A stretch of DNA of 37,857 nucleotides from Nitrospinaceae bacterium (lineage in GTDB: Bacteria; Nitrospinota; Nitrospinia; Nitrospinales; VA-1), in contig JAJDAW010000070.1 in assembly GCA_029261635.1 (NCBI GenBank), positions 1 to 37,857 of the forward strand, read 5' to 3'. Below are positions 27,299 through 33,413 of the stretch, piece by piece. Made by a program: the position numbers and the translations under genes. Within the stretch, counting starts at the first letter, position 1; every line of letters begins with the position of its first letter. A model generated the notes under the pieces. The model was not told the DNA's origin and did not search any database. It was given only the letters and a program-made list of their open reading frames with translations.

Positions 27299-28108
27299 AT
27301 GGGAAAACCAACAAAAATTAAAAAAGGCGAAGCCTTTCAATTTGTTCGGCGGGATTTTTTAAAGCTTCTATCCTTTGCAGGTCTCTCCACTCTTCTGCCC
27401 GGTCGTGTTTTTGCGAAGGACGATTGGCGCAACGATAAAAACATACCCAAACAATACATACAAAATCGCGACCTTCCCGATTTTCATATTCGTAGTGCAA
27501 ATCCATTTATGGGTGTTGATATGAATGCTTGGGGCCTGGCCGTTGGCGGTATGGTGAAGAACCCTATTGGATTCAGCTATGAAGATTTGTTTGGGATGAA
27601 AATGTTTACCCAGATTTCCCGTCTCAAGTGCGTTGAATGCTGGTCGGCAAAAGCGGAATGGCAAGGCTTTCAGTTTTCTGAATTGGTTGGAAAGGTTCAG
27701 CCCGACCCCGCCGCGAAATTTGTTTATATTCAGTCTGCCGACTCTTATTACGAAAGTTTTGCTATCGAAGAACTGTTGCGTCCGCGTGTGTTGTTTGTTC
27801 TGCGTATGAACGGAAAGTCTTTAAGCAAAGACCATGGTTATCCGTTGCGGTTGATCGCGCCGTTTAAATACGGCTACAAAAATATCAAGTACATTACCAG
27901 CATCAAGTTCATGGATACTCGGAAAAGAAATTACTGGGCTAACAGCGGTCCTTATTCCGTAGATGGAACCATTCAGCCGGGCATCGATCATCCTCTCGAC
28001 TATAATAAAAAACCTCTGCCGATTAACGGCGGTGAAGTTTTCCACTTCTTCGACCAGCGTGACGCTGGACTCAATAGGTCGGCACCCAAAAAAAATTCCA
28101 CACCGTGA
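27299..28108 (+). CDS. Tat-exported molybdopterin-dependent oxidoreductase (sulfite oxidase/MsrP-like fold)
   Basis: RRDFLKLLSFAGLSTLLPG Tat-like signal; GMVKNPIGFSYEDLFGM...RLKCVECWSAKAEWQGFQFSEL...HGYPLRLIAPFKYGYKNIKYI. Confidence 0.88.
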   Translation: MGKPTKIKKGEAFQFVRRDFLKLLSFAGLSTLLPGRVFAKDDWRNDKNIPKQYIQNRDLPDFHIRSANPFMGVDMNAWGLAVGGMVKNPIGFSYEDLFGMKMFTQISRLKCVECWSAKAEWQGFQFSELVGKVQPDPAAKFVYIQSADSYYESFAIEELLRPRVLFVLRMNGKSLSKDHGYPLRLIAPFKYGYKNIKYITSIKFMDTRKRNYWANSGPYSVDGTIQPGIDHPLDYNKKPLPINGGEVFHFFDQRDAGLNRSAPKKNSTP

Positions 28109-28177: not shown

Positions 28178-28939
28178 TTGCTCTTTATGCTTGACCGAAA
28201 GTTGAATGTCTTTGCGCCTTTTACTTTAACCCTCTTCTGTTGTTTTCTTTTTGCCTGCGACTCCTATGAAGTAAGGCAAATTAAGGTGGATGTTCCTGCT
28301 GATGTTCAGGTTCCTGATGGGATGGTTTATATCCCTGCCGGGGATTTTATTATGGGTCACAAAGAAGAGCCTCGAACGCGATTGGGAGAAACGGTTTCGT
28401 CGCATGCCTATCTCATTGATCGTTATGAAGTGAGCCACGAACAGTACAAAAAGTTTCGCGCGGAGCATAGCTATCATTCTAAATCAGCCGCTTATCCGGT
28501 GACACATGTTTCCTTTTCAGAGTCTTTAGACTATTGCAAATCCTACGGCAAACGGTTGCCAACAGAAATCGAATGGGAAAAAGCGGCGAGAGGCACAGAC
28601 GGCAGAAAATGGCCGTGGAGAGTATTTTTCGGTCATCCCAATAACGGATTTTCAGGTTTCATTTCAGAGCCAGTAGGCAAGAGAACGGAATGGATCAGTC
28701 CCTATGGCGTTTATGGAATGGGACACAATGTATGGGAATGGATTGGCGAAGGATATACTTATTCAGGGCAACCTGAAAACGAACGCGATCGATTTAAAAT
28801 TATACGCGGCGGATTGTTGCAGACCCATATCACAATAAAATTTTCACCTGCCTATTTTAGAAATTGGATGACTCCAGAATCTAAACTTAATTTTATTGGT
28901 TTTCGTTGCGCGAAAGATGTTGGAAAAATGGGAGAGTAA
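28178..28939 (+). CDS. SUMF1/FGE-fold domain lipoprotein
   Basis: Hydrophobic N-terminus ending FACDS (lipobox-like); MVYIPAGDFIMGHKEEPRT...VSFSESLDYCKSYGKRLPTEIEWEKAARG...HNVWEWIGEG...IIRGG...GFRCAK. Confidence 0.85.
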   Translation: MLFMLDRKLNVFAPFTLTLFCCFLFACDSYEVRQIKVDVPADVQVPDGMVYIPAGDFIMGHKEEPRTRLGETVSSHAYLIDRYEVSHEQYKKFRAEHSYHSKSAAYPVTHVSFSESLDYCKSYGKRLPTEIEWEKAARGTDGRKWPWRVFFGHPNNGFSGFISEPVGKRTEWISPYGVYGMGHNVWEWIGEGYTYSGQPENERDRFKIIRGGLLQTHITIKFSPAYFRNWMTPESKLNFIGFRCAKDVGKMGE

Positions 28940-28948
28940 AGCTGTGAG

Positions 28949-29425
28949 CTAGAAATCGCCTCTAAGGTGACTGGTGATTTCTTTAGCTGCTCGTTCAAAT
29001 AATTTATTTTCAGTGCCGCCGGTAGGCCCGCCTTTTACCCAAGAACTAACTTCCCATGCACCGACCATATCGCGACCATCAAAAAGTGCGACTTTGACTC
29101 TTAATTTCGATTTAGCCCAATCAGAAAACCCCATGGATGCGATGCGTAAAGCACGGTTACCTTCATCGTATTCGAGAACTTTATATTTTAGGCGGTAGCG
29201 GGCGCTTTCACCTGCAAGGGCATAACTGGTGTCTACCATTGCTTCTTCGACGGCACTTTGTAATTGCGAGCCCGCATTTTGCAATTCATAACCTCGGGAT
29301 GTCATATCTATAAGGACTATGGTGTTTTCAGCATTTTGGTAGCGCTTTTTAGTAAGTGAACCCACTCCCGAACAAGCTGGTAAAGTCAGCAGAGAGAGTA
29401 TTAAAATTTGAGTGATGAGTTTCAT
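28949..29425 (-). CDS. Hypothetical lipoprotein
   Basis: MKLITQILILSLLTLPACSGVGS lipobox; start at 29423-29425. Confidence 0.65.
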   Translation of the reverse strand: MKLITQILILSLLTLPACSGVGSLTKKRYQNAENTIVLIDMTSRGYELQNAGSQLQSAVEEAMVDTSYALAGESARYRLKYKVLEYDEGNRALRIASMGFSDWAKSKLRVKVALFDGRDMVGAWEVSSWVKGGPTGGTENKLFERAAKEITSHLRGDF

Positions 29426-29484
29426 AGTTCCTTTTGATAGATATAACTCCCTATATTCTAACAAAATTCAACCCATTTTGACAA

Positions 29485-29670
29485 CTGCTCGCCTCAGGGG
29501 CAAAGATTCTATCTCGAAGCTTGAGTGTTATTGTTTCGCAAAACGAGAATAGACCTATGGCCTCCCACGCTAGTGGGCTGCTCGACGCAGGGCAAAGATT
29601 CTATCTAGAAGCTTGGAGGCTCTTGTTTTGCAGAACGAGAATAGACCTATTACCTCTCACGTTAGTGAGT
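29485..29670. repeat. Imperfect tandem repeat, two copies of ~92-93 bp, each with a hairpin
   Basis: GGGCAAAGATTCTATCT(c/a)GAAGCTTG...AACGAGAATAGACCTAT; hairpins CCCAC-gcta-GTGGG (29564-29577) and CTCAC-gtta-GTGAG (29656-29669). Confidence 0.85.
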
Positions 29671-31410
29671 GAACCAGTGGAGGATGCCTTCTTCAAATTC
29701 GCTGAACCAGATTTGGACTTCAATGGGGATGAGGCTATTGATATAAGTCATGTATCCGGTGGCGAGGACGATTCCTAATATGATCAACAAAATTCCGCTG
29801 AACAGGTTGGTGGTGTGGAGGAAAATAGTTTTTCCTGCGATGGGAATATCCCATCCCTTTCCGCGAAGCAGAGTCCAGAACATTCCATCCTTTGGAAGAT
29901 TCCCGCACAAGGTGGCAACGAGGATCAAGGGCAGACCGAGCCCGACTGCGTAAAAGAAGAGAAGGTTCATTCCCTGCCAGACTGTTTTTTCAGAAGCCGC
30001 CAGCATGAGAATGCTGGAGAGAATAGGGCCAACACATGGAGTCCAACCGAGAGCAAAGGTGGCACCGAACAGGAAGAATCCGATAAACGTGGAAGCGGGT
30101 TTTCCCTGGAAGCTGGCACCTGAAAACCCTTTTCCAAATAAAGTCATGATACCGAAGACTACAACGACGCCGCCGCCGATTTGCGAAATCTGAAACATGT
30201 AGTCGCGTAACAATTGTCCGAGTACGCTGGCAGAGGCTCCCATTGCGACGAATAGACTGGCGAGTCCGAAAAAGAAAGCGAGTGACATCATGCCCATGCG
30301 TGCCCGATCGGTTTGCGCGGTCACGGCAAAATAAGCTGGCAGGATGGGTAAGGTGCATGGAGATAAAAAACTAAAAACTCCTGCGACAAATGCAAGAAGG
30401 GTTAAGACCAGAATTCCTGATTCGGGAAGATTGGTTTTAGGTGCGAATGGATTGAACGGAGCTGCCGTTTTGGAAGCTGTGTTTAGTGATGCAGGTTTTT
30501 CAGCGGCGCCTGTTGTAGTCGAGGAACTTGCAGGTTGGCTCGATAAAGACAATCCGGTTTTTGCTACTGTTGGTTTGTTTTCGCTGGCACAGCGAAACCC
30601 AACATCGGGCCCTGGCTCATCTGGGTTTGCAAATTGTCGATAACCGCTACGTGCAAACATTTTAATAGCTTCAGCGTACATAGGGAAATGGCCGATATCG
30701 CTTGCTGAGTGGCCGCGAATTATTTTGTATCCCGAATCGTAGTAATCGTTTTTATGGGTGCTGCCTTTATAGGGTTTGTAGTCGTCTGCTACCCATTCCC
30801 AAACATTTCCTATCAGATCGTGTATGCCCTCTTTGCTAGCGGACTTTGGGAAACTGCCTACAGCGACGGGTTTGTTCTTGCTGCCTGCTCGATTTGAAAG
30901 ATGCGATATGTTGGATTGGAATTCGTTTCCCCATGGATATTCATTGCCATTCGTTCCTTTAGCAGCGCGCTCCCACTGTTTTTCGGTGGGCAATTTTTTT
31001 TCCGCCCATTGACAAAAGTTTGCGGCGTTGAACCAGGTCACCCATGTCACCGGTTCCTTATCTTTTCCAGCGGCAAAATTATTGTCTTTCCAGTTGCCGG
31101 GTGGGACAGCTCCTAAGGCATCAATATATTTTTTGTAGCGTTCGTTAGTGACCTCAAAGGTGTCAATGTAAAATCCTTTTAGGAAAATTTTTTGTTGAGG
31201 GCTTTCATCTGCATACCAGGGTTTAGGGATGCCCATGGAAAGTGCCTCGGCGGTTTCATCTTTTTTATTCGTGCCGAAAATAAAATGTCCCGAAGGTATA
31301 TGAACCATTTCCCCTTCCAGAGAATGATCTGTCTGGGTCCATCCAGATGAAGAAATGAAGAGAAAAGAAATTGCGAGAGTGAGCGATAAAAATTTCAGGC
31401 GAAGTGGCAA
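29662..31410 (-). CDS. Fusion protein: signal peptide + SUMF1/FGE-fold domain + CcdA/DsbD-type membrane domain
   Basis: N-term EMVHIPSGHFIFGTNKKDE...KKLPTEKQWERAAKGTNGNEYPWG...GNVWEWVADDY...VGFRCAS; C-term LAFVAGVFSFLSPCTLPILPAYF...FALGWTPCVGPILSSIL. Confidence 0.92.
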   Translation of the reverse strand: MPLRLKFLSLTLAISFLFISSSGWTQTDHSLEGEMVHIPSGHFIFGTNKKDETAEALSMGIPKPWYADESPQQKIFLKGFYIDTFEVTNERYKKYIDALGAVPPGNWKDNNFAAGKDKEPVTWVTWFNAANFCQWAEKKLPTEKQWERAAKGTNGNEYPWGNEFQSNISHLSNRAGSKNKPVAVGSFPKSASKEGIHDLIGNVWEWVADDYKPYKGSTHKNDYYDSGYKIIRGHSASDIGHFPMYAEAIKMFARSGYRQFANPDEPGPDVGFRCASENKPTVAKTGLSLSSQPASSSTTTGAAEKPASLNTASKTAAPFNPFAPKTNLPESGILVLTLLAFVAGVFSFLSPCTLPILPAYFAVTAQTDRARMGMMSLAFFFGLASLFVAMGASASVLGQLLRDYMFQISQIGGGVVVVFGIMTLFGKGFSGASFQGKPASTFIGFFLFGATFALGWTPCVGPILSSILMLAASEKTVWQGMNLLFFYAVGLGLPLILVATLCGNLPKDGMFWTLLRGKGWDIPIAGKTIFLHTTNLFSGILLIILGIVLATGYMTYINSLIPIEVQIWFSEFEEGILHWFTH

Positions 31411-31421
31411 GAGTTTATCCT

Positions 31422-31937
31422 TTATTTGAGAAGGTTTTCAAAATAAAGAATATTGCTGGGCGTGGCCCAGTCTTCTGCACCAAATAGAGCACCGATAATT
31501 TTCCCTTCAGGATCAATCATAAAAGTGGCAGGAAGGCTAGTCACACCAAATGCGTTGCTGGCTTTTAACCGCTGGTCGAGAAGGATGGTGAAGTTGAGAT
31601 TATTTGCTTTAACAAAAGGCTTAACAATTGTTGCGCCAAACATATCGTTTGAAATGGCGAGCAGTGCAAAATTTTTATTTTTGAATCGTTGATAGAGGGC
31701 TTCCAAGGAAGGCATTTCTATTTTGCAGGGTCCACACCAGGTAGCCCAAAAGTTTACTAGAACATATTTGCCACGAAACTGACTGAGGCTGATTTCTTCT
31801 CCATCCATGTTTTTTAACGTAAAATTGGGGGCTACCATTCCTTCTTCCTCTGCTGCATGGGCTGAGGTATGCAAAACAAAAAGGAGGGCCAAACACGAAA
31901 TAGCCAGGGAAATTTTTTTATGAATCAAACTTTTCAC
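31422..31937 (-). CDS. TlpA/ResA-like thioredoxin-fold protein
   Basis: Signal peptide; APNFTLKNMDGEEISLSQFRGKYVLVNFWATWCGPCKIEMPSLEALY...VTSLPATFMIDPEGKI. Confidence 0.95.
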   Translation of the reverse strand: MKSLIHKKISLAISCLALLFVLHTSAHAAEEEGMVAPNFTLKNMDGEEISLSQFRGKYVLVNFWATWCGPCKIEMPSLEALYQRFKNKNFALLAISNDMFGATIVKPFVKANNLNFTILLDQRLKASNAFGVTSLPATFMIDPEGKIIGALFGAEDWATPSNILYFENLLK

Positions 31938-31996: not shown

Positions 31997-32230
31997 CTAC
32001 TCGACAGCTTCTATACAGCGTACCATGGGAACGGCTTTTTTAAGTGCCTTTTCAATTCCCATTTTTAAAGTCATGGTCGAACTGGAACAGGAGGCGCAGG
32101 AACCTACCAGACGTAATTTAACCACTCCGTCATCAATGTCCACCAGTTCTACATTGCCCCCGTCCGCCATGAGCATAGGTCGCAGGGTTTCTAGTACTTC
32201 TTCGACTTCTTCTTTCATGGATTCTATCAT
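31997..32230 (-). CDS. NifU-like C-terminal domain protein
   Basis: [57 protein letters not shown]. Confidence 0.93.
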
Positions 32231-32315: not shown

Positions 32316-33060
<745 letters not shown>

Positions 33061-33122: not shown

Positions 33123-33413
33123 TCAGGGATTGGTGCGGACAACAAGATCGTCCGTGACTGTCACCTGACAGGCCATACGAAAATCATCGGGTTTCTTACC
33201 CAATTTGTCGGTTTCGGTCTCATTTCTGGGATCGATCTTGCCAGATAAAACCTGTACTGTGCAAGCGGTGCATAAACCTCGCCCACGACAGTTGAGAATT
33301 TTGGTGATGTGAGGATAGATACTGAACTTGTTCCGAATCGCGGCTTCCCGCAGATTTTCCCCTTCTTCCACCTCAATGGTGCGGTTCTCTTTTTCAAAAC
33401 GAACTTTTAGCAT
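33123..33413 (-). CDS. 2Fe-2S ferredoxin
   Basis: TKILNCRGRGLCTACTVQVLSG...RMACQVTV four-Cys pattern. Confidence 0.9.
   Translation of the reverse strand: MLKVRFEKENRTIEVEEGENLREAAIRNKFSIYPHITKILNCRGRGLCTACTVQVLSGKIDPRNETETDKLGKKPDDFRMACQVTVTDDLVVRTNP

Follow-up and report, generated by a model that had tools for sequence, protein, structure and literature searches.

An FGE-fold domain fused to a CcdA-type thiol conduit in the Nitrospina order

The fusion gene and its neighbourhood

The window, that is, the whole stretch of 37,857 nucleotides that was analysed, is one contig of an 81%-complete draft genome of a Nitrospinaceae bacterium (181 contigs, 2.18 Mb). On its minus strand an open reading frame with a TTG start (29662..31410) encodes a 582-aa protein that joins a domain of the formylglycine-generating enzyme (FGE) fold to a membrane domain of the CcdA type. 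It begins with a signal peptide of approximately aa 1-27 (31330..31410), including a hydrophobic segment at aa 1-21, which varies in sequence among homologues yet is present in them. The FGE/SUMF1-fold domain follows at aa 33-275 (30586..31314) and is matched over this range by the Pfam FGE-sulfatase family (E 1.2e-44). A low-complexity, largely unconserved linker occupies aa 277-327 (30430..30582), and the CcdA domain with its C-terminal tail, which contains six hydrophobic segments, takes up aa 328-582 (29665..30429). The Pfam DsbD_TM match at aa 336-513 (29869-30405; E 2.7e-17) is followed by one more helix and then the tail to the C-terminus; like the FGE-sulfatase match, it lies far over the curated cut-off. 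The redox cysteines C352 in TM1 (LSPC; 30355..30357) and C459 in TM4 (TPC; 30034..30036) are invariant in 52/52 fusions. A preliminary description of this DNA had read the frame as a signal peptide, a SUMF1/FGE-like domain and a CcdA domain with both redox cysteines, and the ORF and Pfam results confirm it. Loops L1, L3 and L5 are rich in K/R and the C-terminal tail is acidic. These charges and the signal peptide fit an N-out/C-out topology, which would place the FGE domain in the periplasm. The AlphaFold2 model of the full-length protein, built with 50 fusions, is too poor for domain placement (pLDDT 66, pTM 0.43).

The next gene upstream on the same strand (31422..31937) encodes a TlpA/ResA-like secreted thioredoxin of 171 aa with a WCGPC motif. 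It had been placed 11 bp from the fusion, and the ORF coordinates bear this out (gap 31411-31421). The thioredoxin fold, the WCxPC motif and an export signal are all present, and the scores fall under the NCBIfam cut-offs for both ResA (130.8 vs 170) and TlpA (93.5 vs 230); one homologue in the protein's alignment has WCIPC. The pairing is order-wide: the TlpA gene lies upstream of the fusion at 53/55 loci, the remaining two being contig edges, and the two genes overlap by 4-7 bp in several genomes. Further upstream, all on the minus strand, are genes for a 77-aa NifU-like protein (31997..32230), found at no fewer than 21/55 fusion loci (an undercount, since the query was in the wrong reading frame), and three conserved neighbours, a YfhL-type 4Fe-4S ferredoxin (32316..32672; true start probably internal), a JAB/JAMM protease-like protein (32599..33060) and a 2Fe-2S ferredoxin (33123..33413). 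The next gene downstream, also conserved and on the minus strand, encodes a DUF4410-like protein (28949..29464) with a Pfam score below the cut-off. Beyond it, on the plus strand and convergent with the fusion, lies the gene for a second FGE-domain protein, probably a lipoprotein (28178-28939), which has a homologue at 34/55 fusion loci. It adjoins a gene for an MsrP/YedY-like molybdopterin oxidoreductase with a Tat-type signal (27299-28108, plus strand), which scores under the NCBIfam MsrP cut-off (114.2 vs 207 bits) and has a homologue at 33/55 fusion loci.

Like CcdA (PF02683; T. thermophilus, PDB 5vkv), the fusion has a six-helix membrane domain with redox cysteines in TM1 and TM4, an adjacent TlpA/ResA-type partner gene and no attached thioredoxin domain; the solved T. 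thermophilus structure aligns with aa 339-570, most of the CcdA part. Unlike CcdA, it carries an exported N-terminal FGE-fold domain, a linker of ~50 aa and a conserved C-terminal tail. It also resembles DsbD in that a periplasmic N-domain precedes the membrane domain, and DsbD_N-like and thioredoxin-fold partners are encoded in the genome. However, the N-domain has the FGE fold, and the DsbD_N with its redox cysteine pair is a separate protein. Nor is there a C-terminal thioredoxin (gamma) domain: past the sixth helix there is just a short tail, and TlpA is separate.

Distribution and origin

The genome sample comprised 77 Nitrospinota genomes, 64 belonging to the Nitrospina order and 13 to other parts of the class. 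An in-frame FGE-CcdA fusion is found in 60/64 order genomes, single-contig ones included, and in all 28 of those with a completeness of at least 90%; it occurs in 0/13 of the class genomes outside the order. The four order genomes that lack it (G053, G060, G067 and G068) are 57-83% complete and have no DsbD_TM protein at all, which fits missing sequence. Given that the source genome is a draft in 181 contigs, one might suspect that gene prediction or assembly had wrongly joined two genes; the recurrence of the same in-frame fusion across the order, in some cases on a single contig, rules it out and leaves it a virtually nil probability. The same recurrence excludes a stop between the two domains, which the preliminary description had named as a possible refutation. 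The other refutation it named, that the architecture might prove common and characterised, holds in its first half, for the fusion is common within the order; as to the second half, a literature search found no paper describing an FGE-CcdA fusion, and the main text of the N. gracilis genome paper mentions neither CcdA nor disulfide. In G061 (contig C182) the fusion contains an in-frame TGA, probably a sequencing error, and G066 has two fusion copies (contigs C14 and C128), probably reflecting a mixed bin.

This survey had Nitrospinota genomes as its scope; one scan of genome contigs used two CcdA peptide patterns only. A search of viral contigs for the fusion gave no match, and a plasmid search returned 645 matching records, none covering 80% of the fusion query. 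In a tree that includes 18 fusions, their CcdA parts group together in a single clade (support 100/95), whose neighbours are the stand-alone CcdA of SZUA-224 and one relative. A single fusion clade adjoining stand-alone CcdA makes one origin of the fusion the simplest reading of the tree.

The FGE-fold domain and its paralogs

AlphaFold2, run on the FGE domain with 48 relatives, gives a confident model (pLDDT 93, pTM 0.91), which in Foldseek matches the structures of CalU17, ToxD, EgtB, SUMF2 and FGE. The domain shares with SUMF1/FGE and SUMF2 (PF03781) the fold, the positions of the structural-disulfide cysteines and a GNVWEW motif. As in SUMF2, the catalytic, copper-binding cysteine pair (C336/C341 in human FGE) is absent. 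It had been proposed that the C-terminal region lacks the canonical pair and that the domain may bind a substrate or partner rather than act as an FGE: the former is correct, no cysteine standing at the catalytic positions, and this absence supports a function other than that of an FGE. Unlike SUMF1/FGE, the domain is fused to a membrane conduit, and by its catalytic residues it does not qualify as an FGE. Absence of the pair is ordinary within the large FGE-domain family of the source genome, where 22 matches to the FGE-sulfatase domain across 2.18 Mb amount to a marked expansion.

The domain contains only two cysteines, C133 (31012..31014) and C274 in a GFRC motif (30589..30591), neither at a catalytic position. 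They align with SUMF2/FGE positions and are the counterparts of human FGE C218 and C365, whose disulfide is structural (PMC4505483). Both are invariant in 52/52 fusions, as a redox-active or regulatory disulfide replacing the pair of the DsbD alpha domain would be. Such a role is nevertheless very unlikely: of 12 other FGE paralogs without a CcdA fusion, all 12 have a counterpart of C133 and 11 one of C274, the human counterparts are structural, and a DsbD_N pair is encoded elsewhere in the genome. The six closest paralogs keep C274 and have Ala at position 133. These closest paralogs have lipobox-like N-termini and look like lipoproteins, and in three regions their neighbourhoods show no apparent tie to redox. 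Conversely, no FGE gene was found near 25 non-fused CcdA loci.

An enzymatic role deserves somewhat more weight, although it too is unlikely. The fused domain could be an uncharacterised enzyme that consumes reductant from its own CcdA domain, since it belongs to the same superfamily as EgtB/OvsA, PvdO and FGE, FGE catalysis uses a thiol reductant (PMC4505483) and polar residues such as H241, R254 and R258 are conserved. However, the FGE catalytic positions 336/341 are without cysteine, the EgtB-type N-terminal iron-binding domain is absent from the fusion by Pfam, and the non-fused, lipoprotein-like paralogs share many of these residues, G240-H241-F242 among them. Among the sulfoxide synthases (EgtB/SenA/OvsA), the score lies under the NCBIfam cut-off for EgtB (85.6 vs 360 bits), as it does for PvdO (51.7 bits vs 500). 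Conservation of the domain is strong, with a mean pairwise identity among fusions of 63% vs 18% for the linker (aa 277-318), the length of which ranges from about 37 to 56 aa. Residues invariant in fusions but not in the six closest paralogs include R91, N131, G176 and P62, which are candidates for a fusion-specific surface.

Reductant delivery in the order

The fusion is the only DsbD_TM protein in 17/17 fusion-bearing order genomes tested (10 + 7), several of them single-contig. Since it is the sole DsbD/CcdA-family protein there, the thiol reductant of the periplasm presumably all comes through it, that for the Ccm system included. The source genome carries a Ccm system I cluster on contig C124 (CcmE, F, H, A-like, B and C) together with a CcmG-like thioredoxin that is 38% identical to the fusion-adjacent TlpA, and CcmH was found in 10/10 order genomes tested. 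According to a review, DsbD is what reduces CcmG, and CcdA takes its place as a variant in some organisms (PMC3601427). From the sole-copy status, the Ccm genes and this precedent we infer that the fusion feeds Ccm in these genomes. The earlier suggestion of TlpA-CcdA reductant delivery gains support from the order-wide TlpA pairing, the single DsbD_TM protein and the Ccm genes.

The DsbD N-domain is encoded on its own. A PF11412 search detected a small secreted DsbD_N protein in 8/10 order genomes. A search with an alignment of five such proteins, in which the CX4C cysteine pair is invariant, found a free-standing DsbD_N in 53/64 order genomes, among them 26/28 with a completeness of at least 90%, and in 0/13 class genomes outside the order; the order being one clade, this co-occurrence with the fusion is not independent evidence of interaction. 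In five regions examined the gene adjoins that of a DsbA-like CPFC protein. At the corresponding locus of the source genome (L168, contig C154, 4698-6308), the CPFC protein next to the free DsbD_N is extended by a long N-terminal region. Some class relatives (G055, G056, G057 and G059) have instead a DsbD of the ordinary three-domain kind, a DsbD_TM protein of 640-680 aa made up of an N-terminal region, the membrane domain and a C-terminal thioredoxin. Pfam places DsbD_N over the cut-off in one of these four proteins and under it in two; the fourth is unscored and shows a CNDVTNIC motif by eye. Of the other families in the class, f8 has a stand-alone CcdA, and in f9 the DsbD_TM frames are short, at about 235-256 aa. 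The order thus differs from its class relatives in having an FGE-CcdA fusion, a separate DsbD_N and TlpA. DsbD has been replaced in the order by recruited parts, rather than broken up, because the CcdA part of the fusion groups with stand-alone CcdA.

A mechanism can be proposed on this basis. Because of its family membership and invariant cysteines, the fusion is expected to share the CcdA property of taking electrons from thioredoxin in the cytoplasm and passing them to thioredoxin-fold proteins in the periplasm. Electrons would cross the membrane through C352/C459 and pass to the adjacent TlpA and the CcmG-like protein, with the free DsbD N-domain protein as a probable further acceptor. The FGE domain would sit in the periplasm where DsbD has its alpha domain, with no free redox pair of its own, and would most likely recruit or orient thioredoxin-fold partners over the CcdA outlet. 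The reading slightly favoured here makes the fusion the order's sole CcdA/DsbD-type reductant conduit and gives its FGE fold the part of a docking platform without catalysis. The invariant CcdA cysteines, the fitting topology, the upstream TlpA, the single DsbD_TM protein, the presence of Ccm and of a free DsbD_N where three class relatives keep the N-domain in one chain with the other two, the conserved non-catalytic FGE domain and the single clade of the fused CcdA parts all speak for it. Elsewhere, however, CcdA works without a large N-terminal domain, also in the nearest relative (G058/L134), so docking is not generally required. The linker is moreover long and unconserved, and the FGE domain may therefore be a loosely tethered passenger.

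Among the rivals to docking, a general tether ranks first, followed by the reductant-using enzyme and then by the redox role of C133-C274. As a tether, the FGE domain would hold the conduit at a particular site by attaching it to something outside the redox path, such as an envelope protein or a glycan, with no recognition of partners. GldK/PorK, proteins of the T9SS ring, belong to the same family and have a structural role. The 22 FGE-fold proteins of the source genome, the closest of them lipoprotein-like, suggest a general binding fold in the lineage, and the nature of the linker also agrees with a tether. The adjacency of TlpA and the strong conservation of the FGE domain fit a role in the thiol pathway, although neither excludes a tether, which is on the whole rather improbable. 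The docking reading can be extended to a doubtful but possible scheme in which the order runs a disassembled DsbD, with conduit, DsbD_N and thioredoxin as separate proteins and a dead FGE fold, recruited from the local lipoprotein family, as the docking hub at the membrane.

Among the nitrite oxidisers of the sea, bacteria of the Nitrospina order are a major group; their energy metabolism relies on c-type cytochromes, and the fusion is apparently the one CcdA/DsbD-type path by which thiol reductant reaches their periplasm. If the docking reading is true, the FGE fold would serve electron delivery without acting as an enzyme, and DsbD would prove to have modules that can come apart and be exchanged. 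Large N-terminal modules also occur in other members of the same CcdA subfamily, namely L133 and L137 from Deltaproteobacteria and L141 from Woesearchaeota, in which the module is an alpha/alpha-barrel-like region and not FGE. That of L141 contains a DsbH-type thioredoxin domain, and L137 and L141 are 36% identical over 563 aa, CcdA part included. Most Chloroflexota relatives have short N-terminal extensions.
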